Shown here one piece after another: positions 1,156 to 47,460 of a DNA stretch of 64,000 bases. Made by a program: the position numbers and the translations under genes. This stretch comes from Lunularia cruciata. Taxonomy: Eukaryota > Streptophyta > Marchantiopsida > Lunulariales > Lunulariaceae. The stretch is from positions 79,130,218-79,194,217 of the forward strand of contig OX419755.1 of the NCBI GenBank assembly GCA_948567375.1. The letters are read 5' to 3'. Position 1 is the stretch's first letter, and each line of letters opens with the position of its first letter. The notes under the pieces are model-generated. The model saw only the letters and a program-made list of their open reading frames with translations. It did not search any database and was not told the DNA's origin.

Positions 1156-1335
1156 AGTCCCGAGATGGGAAGTTTGTCGAGAAGGTAGCTATAGAGTAAG
1201 CCTTGAAGGGAGATAAGTCCCAAGATGGGAAGTTTACCAAGGAAGAAGCCATGGAGCAAGCTTTGAAGAAAGATGAGTCCCTAAATGGGAAGTTTGTTAG
1301 TGAAGCAACCATAGAGCAAGCTTTGGAGAAAGATA
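1156..1335 (+). repeat. Three 60-bp in-frame tandem units between protease and RT (A1)
   Basis: Three consecutive 60-bp units start at 1156, 1216 and 1276, each beginning AGTCCC and containing ATGGGAAGTTT. They encode three 20-residue repeats of the type S-x-D-G-K-F...EQAL. The same three-unit array is in A2 at 13981-14160, so it belongs to the family and is not a local duplication. Confidence 0.93.
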
Positions 1336-1339
1336 AGTA

Positions 1340-2869: not shown

Positions 2870-3776
2870 TCCCTTCTTCCAAATGGTACATGGTCATCTT
2901 ATAGCATGCAACAAGGAGTACAACACCTTCTCCTTCAAGGAAAGCCTTCTATTCCATAAGGACAGGATCTATATTCCAACCAAAGGTGATCTTGAACTTG
3001 TGCGCCTTCAAGAAGCCCATGATTTACCAATAGCTTGTCACATGGATGTGGACAAGACCTTGGGTACACTCTAACGGCAATGGTGGTGGCCCAACATGAC
3101 ACAAGATATTTAAGAGTTTGTCCAATCATGTGAGAGCTGCAAACATAACAAGGCCAACAACCAGAAGCCGAGTGGACTCCTTCAACCACTCCACATTCCA
3201 TCTGCTTGATGGGAACACATGAGCTTAGATCTCATCACATCCTTGCCTAAGACAAAGCAAGGACACATAGCAATCATGGTGTTTGTGGATAATCTTAGTA
3301 AGCAAATCCACTTAGCACCAACCTTTGATACCGTGGATGCTCCAACCTTAGCATGAATCTACTTTGACAATGTCTTCAAGCATCATGGGATGCCATGTGT
3401 ACTCATCTCCAACCGCAATCTGGGAAGTTTTGGCAAGCACTCTTCTAGATACTTGGCACCAAGCTTGCTTTGTCCATGGCCTATCATCCTCAAACTAATA
3501 GACAAACTGCACATGCAAATCATACCTTGGGAGATATGTTGCGTGCCTTTGTCAATGTCCACCATACCAATTGGGATGAATGTCTTGCAATTGCAGAATT
3601 TGCCTACAATAATTCCAAACATACAAGCACCGGATTTTCTCCTTTCTTTCTCAATTTTGGCCAAGGTCCACTTGTTCAAGATTCTCTTCTTCCTCCTCCT
3701 CCATCTCAGGTCCCTCATATTGCAACCTTCTTGACCACCATATCACAATCTCTCTAACAAGCCAAATCTCATCTCC
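2870..3776 (+). pseudogene. A1 integrase remnant
   Basis: The sequence matches A2 integrase. The zinc-binding N-terminus (LVRLQEAHDLPIACHMDVD, then CESCKHNKA), the catalytic-core start (SLDLITSLPKTKQGH) and the conserved AYHPQTNRQT and WDECLAIAEFAYNNS segments with the catalytic Glu are readable in different frames. The second catalytic Asp region reads ISNRN where A2 has ISDRD, so that Asp is Asn here. Stops lie at 3073, 3111 and 3354. The reading continues beyond the solo LTR at 3782-4180. Confidence 0.9.
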
Positions 3777-3781
3777 TTGTT

Positions 3782-4180
3782 TGTAAAAGACCAAGACTGA
3801 GGAGAGAAATAGGAGAATGGAAGCTCCCATTGAGACACTTGAATAAGTGAAAACTCCGAATGCCTAGCATGAGCTTTGGCTTTGGTATTTATAGGTAGTA
3901 TACAAAGCCTTTGAGAAGCTTCCTTGAGCCGCTTTCTTAGAGTGCAAGCCAAGTTAACTAGGAAGCTTCTCAAGAAGCTTCCTTCTAGAAGCCGCCTCCT
4001 TGGCGTGTAAGCTAAGCTAGCTAGAAGCTTCTAGAAGCTACCTGCTTGGAGCACAACTTAACTAGTTAGGAAGCTTCCCAAGAAGCTTCCTAGATGCTTC
4101 TAGAATATTCTAGGCTAATTTGGCTTATTCTCTACTTTTTTAGCCTTACTAACTACGTTGCTAAACTCCATATTGTTACA
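3782..4180 (-). mobile_element. Solo LTR, family A, inserted in A1 pol (TSD TTGTT)
   Basis: This 399-bp LTR is in reverse orientation (plus strand TGTAAAAGACC...ATTGTTACA) and is flanked by perfect 5-bp duplications TTGTT at 3777-3781 and 4181-4185. Removing it restores alignment with the uninterrupted A2 sequence near 11510-11530. It has a TATA-like box (TATTTATA at 3886-3893, reverse) and a perfect 13-bp heat-shock-type trimer at 4024-4036. No internal domain remains, so it arose by LTR-LTR recombination. Confidence 0.96.
4024..4036 (-). promoter_or_regulatory. Perfect heat-shock-element trimer in solo LTR
   Basis: GAAgcTTCtaGAA matches the inverted nGAAn consensus for heat-shock factor binding with exact 2-nt spacing. 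It lies upstream of the LTR's TATA-like box when read on the minus strand. Binding is inferred from the consensus only. Confidence 0.6.
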
Positions 4181-4712: not shown

Positions 4713-4856
4713 TGTAACAATATAGAGTTTAGCGATGTAGTTAGCAAGGCTAACAAAGTAGAGAATAAGCCAAATTAGCAAAAATATTCTAGAAGCATCT
4801 AAAAAGCTTCTTGGGAAGCTTCCCAACTAGCTTAACTTGCACCACAAGCAGGTAGC

Positions 4857-4869
4857 TTCTAGAAGCTTC
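4857..4869 (+). promoter_or_regulatory. Perfect heat-shock-element trimer in A1 3' LTR
   Basis: TTCtaGAAgcTTC, three alternating pentamers with exact spacing, about 145 bp upstream of the TATAAATA at 5012-5019. The arrangement resembles heat-responsive plant LTRs. Function is inferred. Confidence 0.62.
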
Positions 4870-5011
4870 CAACTAGCTTAGCTTGCACGCCACATAGGTG
4901 GGTTTTAGAAGAAAATTTCTTGAGAAGCTTCCTGGTTAACTTGGCTTGCACTCTAAGAAAGAAGCTCAAGGAAGCTTCTTGAGAAGCTTATCAAGGATCT
5001 TGTATACTACC

Positions 5012-5019
5012 TATAAATA
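5012..5019 (+). promoter_or_regulatory. TATA box of family-A LTR
   Basis: TATAAATA within CCTATAAATACC, conserved in all five family-A LTRs in the window (also 3886-3893, 10688-10695, 15898-15905 and 24493-24500 in their own orientations). Confidence 0.75.
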
Positions 5020-5122
5020 CCAAAGCCAAAGCTCATGCTAGGCATTCAGAGTTTTCCCACATTCAAGTGTCCTTATATGAGTTCCATTCTCCTATTTCTC
5101 TCCTCGGTCTCGGTCTTTTACA

Positions 5123-9560: not shown

Positions 9561-10583
9561 TCTCCTCAAATAGTAGCATAATGTAAGGTATCCTTATGCT
9601 AAGCAATTGCCAAGTTCTCAAAGGTCATTGGAACCACTCTCCAAAAGATCTCTGCCCGTTGAGAACATGTGCTCATCCAAACATATGGATCATCCAAGTC
9701 CAAGTCTACAATAGCATCTCGATGAATGGCTATAGGTAAATCTACATCTTGTCTGTAGCGTAGGAAGTAAGGAGAGAAGGATGCCAAGGAGGCTTGCTGG
9801 CTGAACCAATAGCCCATGGCATAATACTTTAAGGACAAGAGAACTCTTCAAGAGAGATACAAGAGAGAAAACATAGATTTCACACTCAATCCTTCGATGC
9901 CCCAAAGGAGCACCTTCTCTTTATTATATAGCCAAAGAAGATCTCCTCCAATGAAGCTCCACCATAGGATTAGGTACATGGATAGGTGACATGTTAGCAA
10001 GCTTCACCCTTAGATTATTTGCTTGGATGGGTGACATGTCAGTCTTGGTCCCATCTGGTTGTGCAAATAGGCTTTGACCAAAGGGAATCTTTTAGGGAAT
10101 CTTCATGTAGGAATCTCAGAATCACATGGGTGAAGTACCATTGGAAAGGTCTTGGTGAGAATACCTATGGGAGGATTGACATAATTTTGAGGCCTAATTC
10201 ATCTGTTTAGGCCTCCAAAATTGCCTTTGAAGTTTTCAAGCCTAATTTGGCTTCTGCCCTATTAATAGAAGTGCTCTTTTGGTGATATCTCTATCTAATC
10301 TACATTCTCCATCATGTGTAACATCCTTCCAAATATCACCACCCCAAGTTTCACCTCTAGATCATATGCCTAGCTATTGATTCTAAATTTTCCAAGCATG
10401 TTTTGGTTTTTGGCCTATTAGTAGAAGTACTCTTTTGGTGATACCTCTAGCTTATCTACTTAGGCATCGCCACAAGATACAACATAGTCCACTTGATTAC
10501 GATGGTGTAGGACATTGGGTCAGGTGGGAGAGTTTCTTAGAGCAGCACAAGCCCTACACCCTTTGTCTATGGCAAGTCCTATT

Positions 10584-10997
10584 TGTAAAAGACCAAAACC
10601 GAGGAGAGAAATAGGAGAATGGAAACTCACATTGGGACACTTGAATGAGGGAAAACTCCAAATGCCTAGCATGAGCTTTGGCTTTGGTATTTATAGGTAG
10701 CAAACAAGGTCCTTGAGAAGCTTCCTCAAGCCGCTTTCTTAGAGTGCAAGCCAAGTTAACTAGGAAGCTTCTCAAGAAGCTTCCTTCTAGAAGCCGCCTA
10801 CTTGGCGTGCAAGCTAAGCTAGTTGGAAGCTTCTAGAAGCTTCCTTCTAGAAGCTACTTACTTAAGGTGCAAGCTAAGCTAACCAGGAAGCTTCCCAAGA
10901 AGCTTCCTAGATACTTCCGGAATATTCTAGGCTACTTTGTCTTATGTGCTACTTCGTAAGCCCGACTAACTTTGTTGCTAAACTCCATATTGTTACA
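10584..10997 (-). mobile_element. A2 3' LTR
   Basis: 414 bp, low-coordinate copy (3' in element sense). TG/CA ends. TATA-like box at 10688-10695 on the minus strand and a GAA/TTC array at 10826-10852. Confidence 0.96.
10826..10852 (-). promoter_or_regulatory. Heat-shock-element tetramer plus extra pair in A2 3' LTR
   Basis: GAAgcTTCtaGAAgcTTC (10826-10843) is four perfectly spaced alternating pentamer cores. TTCtaGAA follows at 10845-10852. It lies about 130 bp upstream of the TATA-like box in element orientation. An identical array is in the 5' LTR (16036-16062). Heat-shock-factor binding is inferred from the consensus. Confidence 0.65.
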
Positions 10998-11011
10998 TAT
11001 TTCCCCACCGC
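10998..11011 (-). other. A2 polypurine tract
   Basis: On the minus strand GCGGTGGGGAAATA lies directly before the 3' LTR and just after the pol stop codon (11011-11013). Confidence 0.85.
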
Positions 11012-12330
11012 TAGTTGGTGACGTCCTTGTCGCCAGTGAAGCTTTGAATTCCTGGATGGCCGTATGTGCATTCTGGAGGTGAGAAAGAGGCTCCCAGGTG
11101 GCATCATGAAGGGAAAACCCCTTCCAAAGGACCTTGTACTTCGTATGTTGGCGACGGCCTTGTTGGATATGGCGACGCGCAAGGATACGATCAACTTTGT
11201 ACTCCTCATGATCATTGATAGGGACAGGAAGAGGGGGAGGTTGGACTCAAGAGGAAAAGGAAGAGGGGTTACGAACAAAGGGTTTCAACTTGGAAACATG
11301 AAAGATAGGTTAGATACGCATGTGACAAGGTAAGGCAAGTCGATAAGCAATAGGAGAGACAATTTGGGTGATATCAAAGGGTCTTATCCAATTAGGGGCA
11401 AGTTTACAAACTTGGGTATCAAGTGGTAGAGGGAGGTTACTGGAGGATAGCATGACTTTATCACCAACTTCAAAGGTGAGATCACGACGATGATGGTCCG
11501 CATATTGTTTTTGGCGATTCTAAGCAATAAGGAGGTGAGACTTGGCTTGTTGGAGCGATTGGGATATAGTGGTCAAGAATGTGGAAGTATGAGGAACCTG
11601 AGATGGAGGGGGAGCAAGAAGAGAATCTAGAACAAGCGGATCTTGGCCAAAATTGAGAAAGAAGGGAGAAAATCCGGTGCTTGCCTATTTGGAATTGTTG
11701 TAGGTAAATTCTACAACTGCAAGACATTCATCCCAATTGGTATGGTGGACATTGATAAAGGCCCGCAACATATCCTCCAATGTATGATTTGCACGTTTGG
11801 TTTGTCCATCAGTTTGAGGATGATAGGCCATGGATAAAGCAAGCTTGGTGCCATGTATCTGGAAGAGTGCTTGCCAAAACTTCCCAATAAATCAAGGATC
11901 ACGGTCAGAGATGAGTACACGTGGCATCCCATGATGCTTGAAGACATTGTCAAAGTAGATTTGCACTAAGGTTGGAGCATCCACATTATCATAGGTTGGT
12001 GCCAAGTGGATTTGCTTACTGAGCTTATCCACAAACACCACGATTGCGGTGTGTCCTTGTTTTGTCTTTGGCAAGGATGTGATTAGATCCAAGCTCACAT
12101 GCTCCCAGCAAGCGGATGGAATGGCGAGTGGTTGAAGGAGTCCACTCGGCTTCTGGTTACTGGCCTTGTTACGTTGGCAGCTCTCACACAATCTGACAAA
12201 TTCTCGAACATCTTGTGTCATGTTGGGCCACCACCATTGACGTTGGAGGGTACCCAAGGTCTTGTCCACACCCATGTGACCAGCGATGGGTAAATCATGG
12301 GCTTCTTGAAGGCGCACAAGTCAAAGATCA
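11011..12330 (-). pseudogene. A2 integrase with C-terminal chromodomain
   Basis: Minus frame 12317-11892 (141 aa) holds the zinc-binding N-terminus (AHDLPIAGHMGVD, LCESCQRNKA), the core Asp (SLDLITSLP) and the second Asp (LISDRDP). After a stop the core continues with AYHPQTDGQT and the catalytic Glu in WDECLAVVEFTYNNS. The C-terminus has PIFHVSKLKPF and a chromodomain (about 11206-11080: EEYKVDRILA, YKVLWKGFSLHDATWEP). Pol ends at TAG 11011-11013. Only a few stops break an otherwise full-length integrase. Confidence 0.93.
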
Positions 12331-13970
12331 CCTTTGGTTGGAACATAGATCCGATCTGTATGGAATAGAAGGCCTTCCTTGAAGGAGAAGGTGTTGTACT
12401 CCTTGTCACCTGTTGTTAGACGACCATGTACCATTCGGAAGAAGGGATCTTGTTGTAGAGCTAACCAAAACTTGTTATGGATCTTGGGGTCAATTAACAC
12501 CGTTGTAATTGCTGCCGCGATGAGAGGAAGGGACTTCAAATCAGGTTGTCATGATAGAGCATCAGGGATGACATGGAACCGACCTGGTTTGTACTCAAGT
12601 TTGATGTCAAACAATTGAAGTTGCTCTTCCCATTGATGATGTTGACTCTTCATGTGCTCCAGGTGTAAGGTCTGCAACAATGGCTTGTGATCAGTTCGCA
12701 TGATCACTTGTTTCCCCAAGAGATAATGCCTCTATACCTTGGTGGCATATACCATTGCAAGTTGTTCCCAATCTCAAGTAGAGTAATTTCTTTCAGCTGT
12801 ATTTAGTCGGCGAGACACAAAGGCAATGGGATGTAGTCCATCTAGAAATTCTTGTTGCAACACAGCTCCAATTGCAAAGTTAGAAGCATCAAAATCAACC
12901 ACACAAGGTAGTTGAGGATCATATGGTTGAAGAATAGGTCTTGAAGACACCATATGTTTCAACTTCTGGAATGCTTCTTCATGTTTGGTGTTCCATTGGA
13001 AGCTTGAGTTCTTTCCCAAGAGGTCAGTCAATGGTACAGCCACATGAGCATAATAGTGGATGAACTGCCGGTAAAAACTGGCCAATCCATTGAATGCCCG
13101 TACTTTTGTAGCATCCTTTGGGGTAGGCCAATCAGTAATGGCCTTGATCTTCTCTTCTTCCATCCTGATCCCCTCTGATGAGATCTTATGAGCCAAGAAG
13201 GTAACCTCCTTCTGCCAAAAAGCACATTTTGACTTCTTGAAGTAAAATTTCCATTGTCGTATTTGTCTTAGGACTTCTCGCACATGATTCACGTGTTCTG
13301 CCTCTGTCTTGCTATAGATTAAGATATCATCCAAGAACACCACCACTGACCAATCCAATAGTCCATCCAACACCCGATGCATCTAATCCATGAAGACTAC
13401 TGGAGCAGTAGTGAGTCCGAAAGGTAGAACTCTCCACTCAAAATGTCCATACCTTGTGCAAAAGGCAGTCTTTTGCACGTCCTCTCCTTCAATAAGAATT
13501 TGTCAATAGCCACTATGAAGATCAAGCTTGGAAAAGTAGCATGCTCCACTTAATTGATCAAGCAGTTCATCGATCCGAGGCAAGGGATATGCATTCTTCA
13601 CGGTTTGCTTATTGAGCTCACGGTAATCAATACAGAAATGAAGTCCTCCATCCTTCTTTGGAACAAATAGTACCGGTGCTCCCCACGGAGAGGTACTATG
13701 TTGTATGAAATCCTTCTCCAACAACTCTGTAAGTGTTGTTTGCAACTCCTCCAACTCCTTTGGTGAGAGCCGATAGATTGGTCTACTCACTGGAGTACTC
13801 CCTGGCAATAACTCGATCTTGAAGGGCATACCTCGATCAGAGGGTAATCCCTTTGGCAGATCATCCGGAAACACATCTGTAAACTCCTGAACTATCTGAT
13901 CAACCATTGCTTGATGCGGCACCTGGCCCTCCTTAGATTGTTCTTGTGCAATCGGCTTGATCCACACCGC
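12330..13970 (-). pseudogene. A2 reverse transcriptase and RNase H
   Basis: Frames 13967-13503 and 13382-12774 give nearly the whole domain. Fingers and palm show [27 protein letters not shown] and [10 protein letters not shown]. The catalytic box is FLDD in VVFLDDILIYSKT. The thumb has KISSEGIRMEEEK. The connection and RNase H have VDFDASNFAIGAVLQQ, RTDHKPLL and a further part to about 12400. Roughly six stops interrupt it. The catalytic residues I can see are intact, so decay is recent. Confidence 0.94.
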
Positions 13971-13980
13971 AATACAGACT

Positions 13981-14160
13981 TATCTTCCTCCAAAGCTTGC
14001 TCTATGGCTGCTTCATTAACAAAATTCCCTTCTAGGGACTCATCTCTCTTCCAAGCTTGCTCCATGGTTGCCTTCTTGGCAAACTTCCCATCTTGGGACT
14101 CATCTCCCTTCCAGATTTGCTCTATGGCTACCTTCTCAACAAACTTCCCATCTTGGGACT
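13981..14160 (-). repeat. Three 60-bp in-frame tandem units between protease and RT (A2)
   Basis: Three exact-length 60-bp units (13981, 14041, 14101), each containing GGGACT at the end and TTGCTC in the middle on the plus strand. On the minus strand they encode three roughly 20-residue charged repeats. Colinear with 1156-1335 in A1. Confidence 0.93.
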
Positions 14161-14176
14161 GACTATTCTTAGGTGT

Positions 14177-14640
14177 CTAACTCAAAGGTGCCAGACAACC
14201 TAATCGGAAATTCCTACCTTGTTGTAGTACTTGAATTTGACGTCGGGTCCAATCAAATTGAACCTTATGACTTTCAAGCCAAGGTAGACCCAAAATGATA
14301 TCATAGTGTAGAGGTGCCACTACAAACCTCATACACTCCAAATACTCCTTCCCAATCTTGAAAGGAATAGGATACGAGGTGCGGAATGCAGAACCTTTTC
14401 TACCATCCGCCATCATCAAACTACTTCCAATCACTGGCTTGATAGGAATCCCCAATTCCTTTGCTACTTGCATAGATATGCAATTCTCTGAACTTCCAAA
14501 ATCAACCAAAATCCTACAACCCCGATTAGATATCATACCTTGCAAGTGAAGCAAACTTGCATAGGTTGAGCCTTCAATCCCATTGGAACTAATCAAGCTC
14601 CCAGTAGGCGGCTCAAAATCTCCTATTGGGATTCTTTGTT
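14177..14640 (-). pseudogene. A2 retropepsin-like protease
   Basis: Minus frame 14596-14177 (139 aa) begins SSNGIEGSTYASLLHLQG and carries RILVDFGSSEN with D-F-G at 14503-14495 where D-T/S-G is usual. MMADGRKG and ILGLPWLESHKVQFDW follow, typical of plant Ty3 proteases before RT. The Phe in the triad is unusual. A1 has Tyr at the same place. Confidence 0.88.
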
Positions 14641-14679
14641 TCCCTTATCATTCTGTTCCACAAACTCCATCTGGGCAAC

Positions 14680-15522
14680 TTGTCGAGGTCACCCATTCCT
14701 AAATGGACATTCAGCAATACGATGTCCAACTTGGCAACAATAAAAGCAACCTCCATTTTGTCGTAATCTTTCTCTATCTGCTATGCCAAGTGGTCTTTGT
14801 TGGATAGCATCAATCTCCATTGGTACCGGTTCTTCCACTTGTGGTACTGGTAGGTTTTGTGTAGGTCGAAGTCGAGACCAAGTTGTCGCAACTAAGGAAT
14901 CAAAATGCTCAGCCAATTGCATGGCTTCTTCTACGTTCTATGGCTCTCGCATAGTCACCTCCAATCTGGTTTGTGACTTCAATCCTTGCACAAATCGATC
15001 CAGAACTTCACCTTCTTGGATATCTAGAATTTGCATGATGATATTTTGAAATTGTGTGATGTAGCTTCTCACCGAGCCAATCTACCTTAACTCCGCCAAT
15101 TTATCTTGTGTAGCTTGGATGGCATTTATAGTCTGAAATCGACCAAGTATTTCATCCTTGAATTCTGCCCATGTCAAAATCGGTGTAACAATTTGTCGTT
15201 CAGCTCTTTCTACTCGGAATCACCACCAAAGTTTTGCCATGCTATCCAATTGGCTAGAAGCCAAGAGAATTTGTTTCTACTCGTCTTGAAGATTGGTGGC
15301 TTCAAAGTAACGTTCACAGTCAAACACAAAATTCTCCATTGTGCTTGGAAGATTCTTGCCTTCAAACACCTTGGGTTTCGGAGATCAAATGTGATCTTCT
15401 GTATCTTGAACTGGCGCTCTCTCTATCTGTTCTCGTCGTTGCTGGTCTCGTTCATCCAACAATCGAGTAAGATGCTCAATTTGTTGTTGCATTGCAAGGA
15501 TAACATCCGGTATTGCCGCCAT
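14680..15522 (-). pseudogene. A2 gag with CCHC zinc knuckle
   Basis: The likely start is ATG at 15522 (minus), giving MAAIPDVILAMQQQIEHL, a coiled-coil-like start. Retrotransposon Gag features follow (FDCERYFEATN, FQTINAIQATQDKLAELR, RSYITQFQNIIMQI). The knuckle CFYCCQVGHRIAEC at about 14755-14714 is an intact CX2CX4HX4C. In-frame stops include those before SPKPKVFEG, after LAELR and after MREP. The start is about 270 bp downstream of the PBS. Confidence 0.9.
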
Positions 15523-15780
15523 TGCTACTTATCTATTCCCCTACCCTCAATTTATCTAGTTGATTAACACATAGATACAACAAGTCCACCGTTCTCCATA
15601 AGTTACAACTGGAAGTATCAAGGGTTCCTCCGACACGATGATCATATGTAGAAAATCTTGCCCAAAGCATGAGGTGATGAATTGTGTGAAACAATGCTTT
15701 GGTAATATCTGGACATAAAAGTCCCAATGGTTTGGCGAAAGTGGATTTGGTGGTCCATAAATTCCATCCATCCCATTCCT

Positions 15781-15792
15781 GCTCTGATACCA
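15781..15792 (-). other. A2 primer binding site (initiator tRNA-Met)
   Basis: On the minus strand TGGTATCAGAGC begins 1 nt inside the 5' LTR end. It is the standard plant PBS complementary to the 3' end of initiator tRNA-Met. Confidence 0.93.
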
Positions 15793-15793
15793 A

Positions 15794-16207
15794 TGTAAAA
15801 GACCAAAACCAAGGAGAGAAATAGGAGAATGGAAACTCACATTGGGACACTTGAATGAGTGAAAACTCCGAATGCCTAGCATGAGCTTTGGCTTTGGTAT
15901 TTATAGGTAGCATACAAGGTCCTTGAGAAGCTTCCTCAAGCCGCTTTCTTAGAGTGCAAGCCAAGTTAACTAGGAAGCTTCTCAAGAAGCTTCCTTCTAG
16001 AAGCTGCCTACTTTGCATGCAAGCTAAGCTAGTTGGAAGCTTCTAGAAGCTTCCTTCTAGAAGCTACTTACTTAAGGTGCAAGCTAAGCTAACCGGGAAG
16101 CTTCCCAAGAAGCTTCCTAGATACTTCTGGAATATTCTAGGCTACTTTGTCTTATGTGCTACTTCGTAAGCCCAACTAACTTTGTCGCTAAACTCCATAT
16201 TGTTACA
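15794..16207 (-). mobile_element. A2 5' LTR
   Basis: 414 bp and about 97% identical by hand count to 10584-10997. Most of the differences I see fall at CpG versus TpG/CpA sites. Carries the same heat-shock-type array at 16036-16062 and TATA-like box at 15898-15905. Right TSD CTATT at 16208-16212. Confidence 0.96.
16036..16062 (-). promoter_or_regulatory. Heat-shock-element array in A2 5' LTR
   Basis: GAAgcTTCtaGAAgcTTC plus TTCtaGAA, identical to the array in the 3' LTR. In this copy it would sit upstream of the element's transcription start. Confidence 0.65.
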
Positions 16208-16212
16208 CTATT

Positions 16213-24218: not shown

Positions 24219-24604
24219 TGTAACAATATGGAGTTTAGCGACGAAGTTAGTAGGGCAACAAAATAGCAAATAAGACAAATTAGCCTAGAATATTCCGGAA
24301 GTATCTAAGAAGCTTCTTGGGAAGCTTCCTGGCTAGCTTAGCTTGCACCTCAAGTAAGTAGCTTCTAGAAGGAAGCTTCTAACTAGCTTAGCTTGCATGC
24401 CAAGTAGGCGGCTTGGTTAACTTGGCTTGCACTCTAAGAAAGCGGCTCAAGGAAGCTTCTTGAGAAGCTTCCCAAGGGCCTTGTATGCTACCTATAAATA
24501 CCAAAGCCAAAGCTCATGCTAGGCATTCGGATTTTTCTCTCATTCTAGCGTCCCAATGTGAGCTTCCATTCTTCTATTTCTCTCCTCGGTCTTGGTCTTT
24601 TACA
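24219..24604 (+). mobile_element. Solo LTR, family A, in B1 gag (TSD GTAAY/RTAAC)
   Basis: 386 bp, TGTAACAATATGG...GGTCTTTTACA, plus orientation. Flanks GTAAT (24214-24218) and ATAAC (24605-24609) fit a GTAAC duplication with one transition each. The empty site is seen in B0 near 36961-36975. It is about 28 bp shorter than the A2 LTRs, and part of the GAA/TTC array is lost. TATAAATA at 24493-24500. Confidence 0.93.
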
Positions 24605-28010: not shown

Positions 28011-28384
28011 GGTATTTCAATCCAAGAGGGTGGATCACCCTTCTTGGAGGAACATGGGCTATTGAGATTGAGTAATTTTGAAGAGAGAAACCATAGTGCA
28101 ATCAACACATTAGGAGTGTGTTAGAGAGAGAATGGGATGGAAGCTCTTGGAATACCCTACACCTTGCTTTTTGTTCTTGAATTTGTTCCACATCAAGATT
28201 ATATTCATCCAATGTGAGCAAGTGAGAGTATATATCATTTTCCATTTTGGAGTAAAGTTCATGGATATAATGATGAATTCACCAAACTCAATGATTTTGC
28301 CTCTAGTGATCTATGATAAAGAGTGGGATTTGATGATCCACATTTTTTTATGATGGATTTGAATATATCAAATCATCTCCCTTT

Positions 28385-28820
28385 CAACACTCAAGTAGAA
28401 ATCTGTTATGTGGTTAGACCAAAAGTAATGTTTAAAGATTTCATAATATGCAATTTTGGTGATAAATATTATCAACAAGTGATAGTTTTTGAAGTCCCAA
28501 TTGTCCATACCCTCTCTCAAGTGATCATATTAACCCTCCATTGAAGTAGGAAGTAGCAATTGGGCAGGAAGTAGTGATTGGGCAGTTGTTGTGTGTAAGA
28601 ATCAACACTCAAGTAGAAATCTGTAATGTGGTTAGACCAAAAGTAATGTTTAGAGTTTTCATAATCTGCAATTTTGGTGATAAATATTATCAACAAGTGA
28701 TAGTCTCTGAAGTTCCAATAGTCCATACACTCTCTCAAGTGATCATATTAACCCTCCATTGAAGTAGGAAGTAGCAATTGGGCAAGAAGTAGCGATTGGG
28801 CAGTTGTTGTGTGTAAGAAT
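28385..28820 (+). repeat. 218-bp tandem duplication in C1 leader
   Basis: Units 28385-28602 and 28603-28820 are the same length and differ at few positions. Each starts CAACACTCAAGTAG and ends GTGTGTAAGAAT. The second copy abuts the gag ATG at 28822. Non-coding. Confidence 0.95.
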
Positions 28821-28821
28821 C

Positions 28822-30600
28822 ATGGATCCAAAGTTGCAAGATTTGATGCAAAGAATGCAAGGGATGTTGAACAAGTTTTAGGAGATCAAGATGACCATGG
28901 AGCCATTGCAAAGTCAAGTATGCACCTTCAGGAAACATCAGGCAATGCAAGAAGGGGAACCATCCCAAAACCGAATACCAACAGCCAAAATACTTGGAAA
29001 GTCACTCATGCCAATGACACCAACCTTGGTCAATAATGAAGCCACATTGTTATTATGGATGAAGAAGACATGTAATATTGAGCCTTATAATGGAGAATGT
29101 TCCATAAGAATAGTGGCAAATTGGATTCAAGAATGAATCAATACTTTCAATTATTCACAATTGAAATCACCAATCATTCTACATGTGTGTTTGCAAGTGG
29201 GTATTGTGAGCCGGCATGTCTCTCACTCAGGATGAACCTCTGATGGCTATTATGGTAGCGCACCATGGACTAAGAAGGCAAGGAATCCCAACTCCATCAT
29301 ACTCCTCCAAGGCTAACACTCCAAGACTCAAGACATTGCTCGCTAAAGAACTCAATGAGAGAGAGATAGTTGTAAATGAAAGGATGATGAGTACCTCCTC
29401 ACCCCTTGTTTATATACTTGTGAAATAGTTACGTACCAAAGTTACTAATTACCGTAGTAACTCAAGTTACTAGACTAAAAGTCAAGTAAAGTCAAAAAGT
29501 AGAAAGGAATATCCATTCACATGGGCATATTCCCTTAAGCATGTGGTCTTATCTTGACCCAACCACTAAGTCAAGGATTCCTTGACATGGGCTATCCTTG
29601 GACTAAAGAAGAATCCAAAACAAAAAGGCTTGTGGGCCCAAGAGTTCTCAACTCTTTCCTCAAAGCCAAACACCTAGGAATAATACCAAGTCAACACACT
29701 AAAATCCAAAATAGTGGTGCTCATCTTTTCTACTTCCTCTAAAGTAAGGTCCCATCTATCTTAGCTATGACTAACTTTAGCTAACCATGACTAATATAGA
29801 ACCATCCTTTATCTCTATATAAATAATATCTCTTAAGTACTTGTAATACCAAGCTAAATATCACAATACCACACACATGCACAAATGGGTGTTACAGTAC
29901 TTGATTGATAAGGCCCTCACATGGTACAATGCTTGGGAATGATCGACGTTGGTAGAAAGAAGAGAGGTCACTTGGATGGCCATGCAAGAAAGGTTGCTAC
30001 AGATTTCCAATCCATGGATTTTGTGCAAATATCCCAAACCCAACTATGAAAGTTGAAGCAAAAGAACAACGTATAGAGTAAGCGGAGGTATTTCTCAATC
30101 TACATGTTGTATAAGCAATATGAGTCCATCAGAAGCTCTAGAAAATTTCAAATGAGGTTTAAATGAGTGAATTTGCCAAGAAGTAATGGTGCAAAACCCT
30201 TGCATGCATTTTGAAGCCATTGCTTGCGCTTAGAGAATAGCATGGGCACTTGGAAGACATGAATGGGTAGTCCTAACTCAACATTATTGTTTGAAATACA
30301 ACACTTTGGTGGACCAATTCCTATGGAATTGTGCAACCTATGGTTCCAAGAACAAGGAGCACAATCGCTCTAAGGAGAACAGGGATGGGTCAAAGAAAGG
30401 AGAGATGGAGTCCCACAAGAAGAATAAACTCAAGTAGAATAATGTCTTTGTTATAATTGTAGCCAAGTTAGGCACCTAGCCATCAATTGTTGTACTTGTT
30501 TTCTTAGAGGCCCTTGGCCTCCATACATGACATGTTTGAACAACATGGAGAAATGGATTGAAGAGGAGGATGCAAAAATCACATCAAAAAACAAAGATTG
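28822..30600 (+). pseudogene. C1 gag, interrupted by an LTR, with intact CCHC knuckle
   Basis: The start ATG at 28822 gives MDPKLQDLMQRMQGMLNKF. Later NIEPYNGECSIRIV and NWIQE are typical plant Ty3 Gag. An LTR of another family is inserted at 29205-29896. Beyond it LIDKALTWYNAWE continues the Gag domain. The knuckle CYNCSQVRHLAINC (30449-30490) keeps all CX2CX4HX4C ligands. Frameshifts and stops interrupt the rest. Confidence 0.88.
29205..29896 (+). mobile_element. Solo LTR of a fourth family (D) inserted in C1 gag
   Basis: About 692 bp between TGTGAGCCGG and GGGTGTTACA, with TG/CA ends, that separates two contiguous parts of Gag. GTAT (29201-29204) and GTAC (29897-29900) are an imperfect duplication. 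CTATATAAATA near 29813 is a TATA candidate if the element reads plus. Orientation is uncertain. No other copy is in the window. Confidence 0.7.
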
Positions 30601-46504: not shown

Positions 46505-47460
46505 TTAACATGGAAGCAAATCATGGATCCATTCAGAAAAAACTTGGCCACCCTTTGAACAAGGCCAATATAGAAAGAGCAAAAAGGTGACCACATAGAA
46601 TACATGAAAGATTTGAAGACCCATCAAGCCGCACAAGGGAGAGAAAAAAAGGTGTAAAATGGGGCTAGGCCCCAATAGTATCGATATGAGAATCTGCCCT
46701 ACCGCACCTAAGATATCCGAGCTATGCAAGTTGCACGGTCTACAAACTACAAGAGCATCCGAAGAAGTATCACCTAGTGTGATTGCTCTCCTATGAATTG
46801 CACCAGCCAATGGTCTCGATAGAGCATTGGACACACATTGTCTAATTTATGGTACAAAGTATGAGAGTGAGAGTGATACTCCCAATATCTAATATGGTAA
46901 GCTCTCGCGCATTCTCTAACAAATGTGTAAAATGCATGTCCATTATTTCATATAACTCCAAGGCTAGAAGAACAAAGAGATGACTTTGTTGCATACCCCT
47001 ATACTTGGAGACTTGGAGTGATGCTGCTCAGCTTGCCGCCCATCCAAGTGGATGAGTAATCACTCCTTCCAAAATTGCATCACAAGTAGGATTTGTAACC
47101 ACAACATCTGCCACTATCACTTAATCATCTTGGACCAAGTATAAGCCTACTCTGACACTTGTTGTTTGCAAAGCATATGAACACTCCCTCCAAGCAAGGT
47201 ATCCATTCTCTTATGCCATAGTAAACATTATATCCCCGATGACATCATGGGTAGCTATCCTCTATTCTCCAAAAGGACACCGTATTGCAAGGTATCCATT
47301 CCCTTATGCCATAGTAAACATTATATCCCCAATGACATCATGGGTAGCTATCCTCTATTCTCCAAAAGGACACCGTATTGCAAGGTATCCATTCCCTTAT
47401 GCCATAGTAAACATTATATCCCTGATGACATCATGGATGCATATTCATGTAAAAAAGTAG
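46505..47460 (-). pseudogene. Second non-LTR fragment (finger and C-terminal region)
   Basis: On the minus strand this matches the LINE at 17990-18770: AGAIHRRAITLGDTSSDALVVCRP in frame 46834-46505 aligns with 18550-18620. The finger-side part continues to about 47440, where a 93-bp segment is amplified. 5' truncated. Ends not resolved. Confidence 0.8.
47195..47436 (-). repeat. 93-bp tandem repeat, 2.6 copies, in non-LTR fragment
   Basis: Units begin at 47195, 47288 and 47381 (CAAGGTATCCATTC...). The first two are full length, the third stops at 47436. The period is a multiple of three, so frames repeat. It derives from the finger-proximal coding part of the non-LTR element (compare 18090-18165). 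Confidence 0.95.

Follow-up and report, generated by a model that had tools for sequence, protein, structure and literature searches.

Perfect four-unit heat-shock elements in the long terminal repeats of a Ty3/gypsy chromovirus family of Lunularia cruciata

Introduction

Could a plant Ty3/gypsy chromovirus use the heat-shock factors (HSFs) of its host as activators of its own promoter? This question is raised by a 64,000 bp stretch of the Lunularia cruciata genome (contig OX419755.1 of assembly GCA_948567375.1, positions 79,130,218 to 79,194,217; hereafter the window), which holds five long terminal repeats (LTRs) of one retrotransposon family, here called family A, totalling 2,023 bp (3% of the window). 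Two of them bound the element A2, in which an initial annotation had noticed arrays of perfect heat-shock elements (HSEs), and which it had read as a heat-responsive system. The observation is confirmed and its interpretation is partly supported. From its sequence, we consider it probable that the family-A LTR is a chromovirus promoter with a four-unit (4P) HSE and further units, which is predicted to be activated in heat by a class-A HSF of the host.

Phased heat-shock elements in family-A LTRs

The 18-mer GAAGCTTCTAGAAGCTTC, present in the U3 region of both A2 LTRs exactly where it had been annotated, is a perfect and palindromic 4P HSE, composed of four alternating nGAAn/nTTCn units with exact 2-nt spacing, to which HSF binding is predicted. 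This 18-mer is printed in at least ten papers, in two of which it is letter-identical to the core of an HSE probe, namely the oligonucleotide used for HSF1/HSF2 pulldown (PMC8492855) and the site of the yeast Hsf1 reporter HSE2-lacZ (PMC4214751). In both A2 LTRs it is adjoined by the two-unit HSE TTCTAGAA, and a gap of 130 nt separates it from the TATA box TATAAATA (array at LTR position 155, TATA at 303), so that the annotated distance of about 130 bp holds as well. HSEs of the three-unit (3P) and 4P types lie in U3 upstream of the promoter, as would be expected of a heat-responsive LTR retrotransposon.

The perfect trimers reported earlier for a solo LTR and for element A1 are equally exact (GAAGCTTCTAGAA at 4024-4036 and TTCTAGAAGCTTC at 4857-4869). 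In addition, a second phased trimer, absent from the initial annotation, was found at 4098, 10915, 16125 and, in the fifth LTR, 24288. The window LTRs that lack the 4P form show gaps of 10 and 14 nt relative to A2 at the position of the array. Eight of the nine arrays of at least three units in the window lie inside the five family-A LTRs, and an order-1 Markov model of the window (100 runs) yielded 0.78 arrays of at least three units and 0.0 of at least four per 64 kb.

By direct reading, the 4P 18-mer contains neither a CG nor a CHG site, so that CHH methylation alone could mark it. The two U3 regions of A2 hold 4 and 6 CG dinucleotides, against 14-15 expected by composition, a shortage for which deamination can be an alternative source.

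Abundance in the genome

A search of the genome (565.8 Mb, 74 contigs) found 5,213 exact copies of GAAGCTTCTAGAAGCTTC and none of its reversed control. A 28-nt family TATA anchor, allowing up to 3 mismatches, is present in 16,034 copies (control 0), and at 3,667 places the 18-mer is followed 120-150 nt downstream by an exact TATAAATACCAA (control 0). Within 20 fetched stretches, all 29 of the 18-mers lie in family-A LTRs.

LTR pairs of seven elements gave Kimura two-parameter (K2P) distances of 0.0095, 0.012, 0.027 (A2), 0.052, 0.059, 0.102 and 0.108. All seven carry the 4P array in both LTRs, six having been fetched by it and A2 being the given case, and these pairs show solely that young and old array-bearing copies both exist. 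An unbiased 200-kb sample of contig C1 held three family-LTR pieces and one 4P, too few for ages. Same-strand pairs 5.0-5.4 kb apart were counted post hoc, with 17 among 86 listed places having both 4P and TATA and 11 among 100 exact TATA anchors (p = 0.011); the two lists are unmatched, and this difference is not relied on.

As a separate observation, three same-strand 4P LTR places at 5.80-5.87 Mb of contig C1 lie 29,156 and 29,154 bp apart with identical letters listed, as if in a 29-kb tandem repeat.

Changes on internal and terminal branches

Terminal branches of an LTR tree record mostly decay after insertion, while internal branches pass through replication. We aligned 36 LTRs (the window contributed 5, the 20 fetched stretches 30 and the random sample 1), built the tree from non-HSE columns and placed the changes by parsimony. 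The columns of the 18-mer were omitted because most LTRs had been selected by it. In the 57 columns of GAA/TTC unit cores, only 6 changes fell on internal branches, where 28.1 were expected from composition-matched U3 draws (0 of 20,000 draws reached 6). On terminal branches the same columns were near normal, with 54 changes against 66.3 expected (p = 0.094). The other 218 U3 columns took 117 internal and 289 terminal changes, giving a Fisher p of 0.0015 for core versus other U3. Moreover, the mask was displaced to ten other positions, 1 to 6 nt away (-6 to +6), and these gave 0.21 to 0.69 internal changes per column, against 0.11 for the unit mask.

The difference between core and other U3 was robust to an IQ-TREE tree, to two distinct random subsets, to the use of a single LTR from each element (29 LTRs, p = 0.0023) and to removal of the window LTRs (31 LTRs, p = 0.0048), with p from 0.0003 to 0.005 throughout. 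The HSE units thus look selected during replication of the element.

Structure of element A2

A2 belongs to the Ty3/gypsy chromoviruses, as had been annotated for family A. It has TG..CA LTRs, a 5-bp target-site duplication (TSD), a tRNA primer site and, on the minus strand, the pol order protease, reverse transcriptase, RNase H, integrase and C-terminal chromodomain, the pieces having been searched separately (Table 1). An ONSEN-type Ty1/copia assignment was ruled out, since the integrase follows RNase H and a chromodomain is present, rather than the integrase preceding reverse transcriptase. The primer site TGGTATCAGAGC is presumably of the initiator tRNA-Met type. The LTR pair is 97.3% identical (11 differences), and the coding frames are broken by stops, the longest open piece with a pol domain having 202 codons. 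Proteins from a metagenome, an alga and seed plants matched the reverse transcriptase piece at no more than 58%. A PPR exon had its best match, at 55%, in a protein with a label (Gb_) taken to denote Ginkgo, among proteins of up to 1.75 times its length.

Several repeats were noted besides. The 60-bp units of U3, for example at 10728-10908, contain GCTTGCA blocks (CTAGCTTAGCTTGCA, TTAACTTGGCTTGCA) in alternation with the HSE blocks. Another tandem repeat, again of 60 bp (20-codon length) with about 3 units, adjoins the reverse transcriptase region in the internal parts of both A1 (1156-1338, plus strand) and A2 (13977-14160, minus strand). The window holds two further tandem repeats (28384-28822, 218 bp, 2.0 copies, 95%; 47194-47436, 93 bp, 2.6 copies, 97%).

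Table 1. Family-A LTRs, their HSEs and the parts of element A2 (positions in the window)
Feature	Position	Strand	Detail
Solo family-A LTR inside element A1	3782..4180	-	TSD TTGTT; phased trimers 4024-4036 and 4098-4110
A1 3' LTR	4713..5122	+	phased trimer 4857-4869
Element A2, Ty3/gypsy chromovirus with two LTRs	10584..16207	-	coding frames interrupted by stops
TSD of A2	10579-10583 and 16208-16212		CTATT
A2 3' LTR	10584..10997	-	414 bp
TATA box region, A2 3' LTR	10686..10696	-	CTATAAATACC
U3 tandem repeat, A2 3' LTR	10728..10908	-	60-bp unit, 2.9 copies; HSE dimers and GCTTGCA block
4P HSE, A2 3' LTR U3	10826..10843	-	GAAGCTTCTAGAAGCTTC, palindromic
Two-unit HSE adjoining 4P, A2 3' LTR	10845..10852	-	TTCTAGAA
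Second phased three-unit array	10915..10927	-	TTCCGGAATATTC on plus strand
Chromodomain (A2)	11040..11201	-	PF00385
Integrase piece (A2)	11892..12320	-	PF17921 zinc-binding domain
Reverse transcriptase and RNase H piece (A2)	12774..13382	-	PF00078, PF17919, PF17917
N-terminal reverse transcriptase piece (A2)	13503..13979	-	PF00078, 24.4 bits, below the 29.6 cut-off
Aspartic protease piece (A2)	14177..14644	-	PF13975, PF13650, PF08284
Primer-binding site of A2	15781..15792	-	TGGTATCAGAGC
A2 5' LTR	15794..16207	-	414 bp
TATA box region, A2 5' LTR	15896..15906	-	CTATAAATACC
U3 tandem repeat, A2 5' LTR	15926..16118	-	60-bp unit, 3.2 copies
4P HSE, A2 5' LTR U3	16036..16053	-	GAAGCTTCTAGAAGCTTC, palindromic
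Two-unit HSE adjoining 4P, A2 5' LTR	16055..16062	-	TTCTAGAA
Second phased three-unit array	16125..16137	-	TTCTGGAATATTC on plus strand
Isolated family-A LTR	24219..24604	+	phased trimer 24288-24300; flanks without clean duplication

Host heat-shock factors

A search of the genome for HSF DNA-binding domains, in which five candidates were scored exon by exon, gave two matches, a number that is a lower bound. They lie on contigs C10 and C14, of 64.5 Mb and 1.25 Mb, and by translation we take the former to be class-B-like and the latter, which has an intron-like gap, to be class-A-like. HSFA2, named at first as the binding target, may be the wrong one, since the two domains found are one class-A-like and one class-B-like. 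So small an HSF set would suit a bryophyte.

Discussion

What was observed comprises the arrays, a distance of 130 nt between them and a conserved TATA box downstream, their abundance in the genome and, relative to other U3 columns, fewer core changes on internal than on terminal branches; a mechanism may be proposed from this. In heat, a class-A HSF would trimerise, and its trimers would bind the 4P array and the neighbouring units. The bound HSF would attract the transcription machinery towards the TATA box, so that full-length RNA would be made. Copies with good HSE units would leave more descendants, and after insertion the units would decay nearly freely. The 4P array itself probably arose within the 60-bp tandem unit of U3. 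In sister units the two GAAGCTTC blocks are separated by 4 nt and miss the HSE register, and one unit has them 2 nt apart and in register.

Several results weigh against heat activation through the phased array, and they are gathered here. The initial annotation had cautioned that the arrays sit in general palindromes that could have another origin, and rightly so; an order-4 model of the A2 U3 produced a 4P array in 26% of 3,000 runs. U3 is rich in GAAGCTTC and TTCTAGAA words, so that a 4P array arises easily; the order-4 model already includes these words, which are two-unit HSEs themselves. Sampling is a further point, as the 18-mer is carried by 31 of the 36 aligned LTRs, 29 of which were selected by it. 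Among LTRs chosen blind to HSEs (the first 100 exact TATA anchors of contig C1), only 24 had the exact 4P at the expected distance, and below 6.1 Mb of that contig 7 of 28 anchors had any exact 18-mer 60-260 nt upstream. From the genome counts and these anchors, the 4P form is carried by about a quarter to a third of family-A LTRs, which corrects the initial annotation.

The branch test has its limits as well. Its depletion stems from two TTCTAGAA blocks and from GAAGCTTC blocks that form three pairs with a 4-nt gap, all of them two-unit blocks (48 columns with 2 internal and 45 terminal changes). No depletion was seen in the second three-unit array, which is in register and has 4 internal and 9 terminal changes in its 9 core columns; nor is it special by pairwise identity, being intact in 24 of the 36 LTRs while 30% of other 13-nt windows are equally conserved. 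Cores compared with in-block spacers gave p = 0.0012 for all LTRs, but the value rose to 0.23 when each element contributed a single LTR and to 0.085 when the window LTRs were dropped. In the same U3, conservation of the GCTTGCA blocks equals or exceeds that of the HSE units, which are among the constrained parts of U3 and not the sole one. Finally, the U3 RNA (10696-10997, minus strand) folds with a z of -4.91 against dinucleotide shuffles, none of 100 being as stable, a strong fold owed to nested palindromes. The branch test thus supports constraint on the HSE units and not on the 2-nt register of the 3P/4P array. The arrays are canonical HSEs, and HSE-unit cores are kept better than matched U3 columns on replicating branches; this does not extend to the second three-unit array.

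As an alternative, a palindromic 60-bp tandem repeat may have spread in U3 by duplication and left the arrays as a by-product, with an HSE register that is accidental and unread by any HSF. The tandem structure of U3 and the ease with which the order-4 model builds a 4P array are in line with this, as is the spacing of neighbouring GAAnnTTC blocks: 69 gaps are of 4 nt, which is out of register, and 32 are of 2 nt, in a sample mostly selected for 2 nt. So are the ordinary behaviour of the in-register second trimer and the fact that out-of-register blocks are kept as well as that trimer, or better. Against it, the unit cores taken together show a shortage of internal changes relative to matched U3 while their terminal changes are near normal, and the unit mask falls below all ten shifted masks; we regard this explanation as unlikely.

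It is also conceivable that HSF binds the LTR without heat induction, either because a class-B HSF represses it or because an HSF drives it in development or under another stress. One of the two host HSF domains is class-B-like. In Marchantia, MpHSFB1 is reported to bind an HSE in vitro (PMC12445474). However, selection on a replicating element would not favour a site that represses it, and the constraint lies on internal branches, so that we give this alternative a low probability. That an RNA or DNA fold (hairpins at the 3' end of the transcript, packaging or a source of small RNA), not HSF, is the reason why the dyads are kept is highly improbable despite the stable U3 fold, as candidate stems showed two-sided compensation in 1 of 725 cells with 41 broken, and as in-block spacers change more than cores on internal branches (significantly in the full sets alone), although a stem needs its spacers as much as its cores.

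Returning to heat activation by a class-A HSF, a much broader claim may be formulated, which we put forward as a speculation that is rather doubtful. A single chromovirus family would have spread about 5,000 perfect HSF docking sites through the genome, and in no fewer than 3,667 cases a ready TATA box follows 120-150 nt downstream. Heat would turn these sites jointly into thousands of promoters and into a sink for scarce HSF molecules, in a host with perhaps just one class-A and one class-B HSF. Most strong HSF sites would then belong to the transposon and not to the heat-shock genes, and the transposon would determine how large and how far-reaching the heat response is.

If heat activation holds, capture of HSF as a means of heat control has arisen in plant gypsy chromoviruses and not in copia elements alone; it extends here to thousands of copies, and the HSE units show a sign of having been selected. 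The genome would moreover offer a direct way to ask whether transposons load or rewire the heat response, since strong HSF sites by the thousand would come from a transposon while the search for HSF domains found only two.

Comparison with known systems

The closest likeness is to ONSEN (ATCOPIA78) and TERESTRA, Ty1/copia elements of Brassicaceae, which also carry a 4P HSE in the LTR and occur in copies with and without the array (PMC5059998). Both show up to thousand-fold induction, 4P elements accompany the strongest heat response in copia families, and in ONSEN a two-unit precursor gave rise to the array by duplication (PMC5059998). Heat induction and dependence on HSFA1/HSFA2 are proven for these copia elements, whereas family A is gypsy and its heat response is predicted. 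ONSEN LTRs 1 and 2 are without CG and CHG sites (PMC3907296), whereas family-A LTRs retain a few of both. In A. lyrata 55 COPIA78 copies are reported, compared with thousands of arrays in family A.

Heat-responsive gypsy elements, or HSF motifs in them, are already known. TCN3 of Cryptococcus is a Ty3/gypsy element with two putative LTR HSEs, of which no insertions were recovered at 30 C, and with which TCN12, another LTR element of that fungus, is grouped (PMC12810828). It differs from family A in being fungal and in that the role of its HSEs is only proposed, the portion available giving no family-wide array count or branch test (PMC12810828). The LTRs of PHRE1 and PHRE2 of moso bamboo are, as in family A, plant Ty3/gypsy promoters, and there they are heat-activated; however, they are bound by TCP20, DOF2 and GATA factors, and the main text does not use the term HSE (PMC8656106). 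Strong heat induction is also described for Ty3/gypsy elements of Cryptomeria japonica (Ujino-Ihara 2020, via PMC9780303). Arabidopsis Gypsy copies near proteotoxic-stress genes share with family A the presence of HSF-type motifs in Gypsy sequence, yet the accessible text describes motif enrichment near host genes, with no phased 4P LTR array seen (PMC8725346). Among the literature matches listed (subscription papers being outside the search), no Ty3/gypsy family of plants was found to have a 4P HSE in its LTR, and a plant chromovirus with perfect 4P HSEs in thousands of copies has no precedent among them.

In scattering HSEs through a genome, family A resembles the Helitrons of Caenorhabditis, which are reported to hold most of the HSEs of C. 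elegans and to gain HSF-1 in heat (PMC6927752). These are DNA transposons of an animal, and their HSE is described as rewiring host genes and is not shown to drive the element (PMC6927752).

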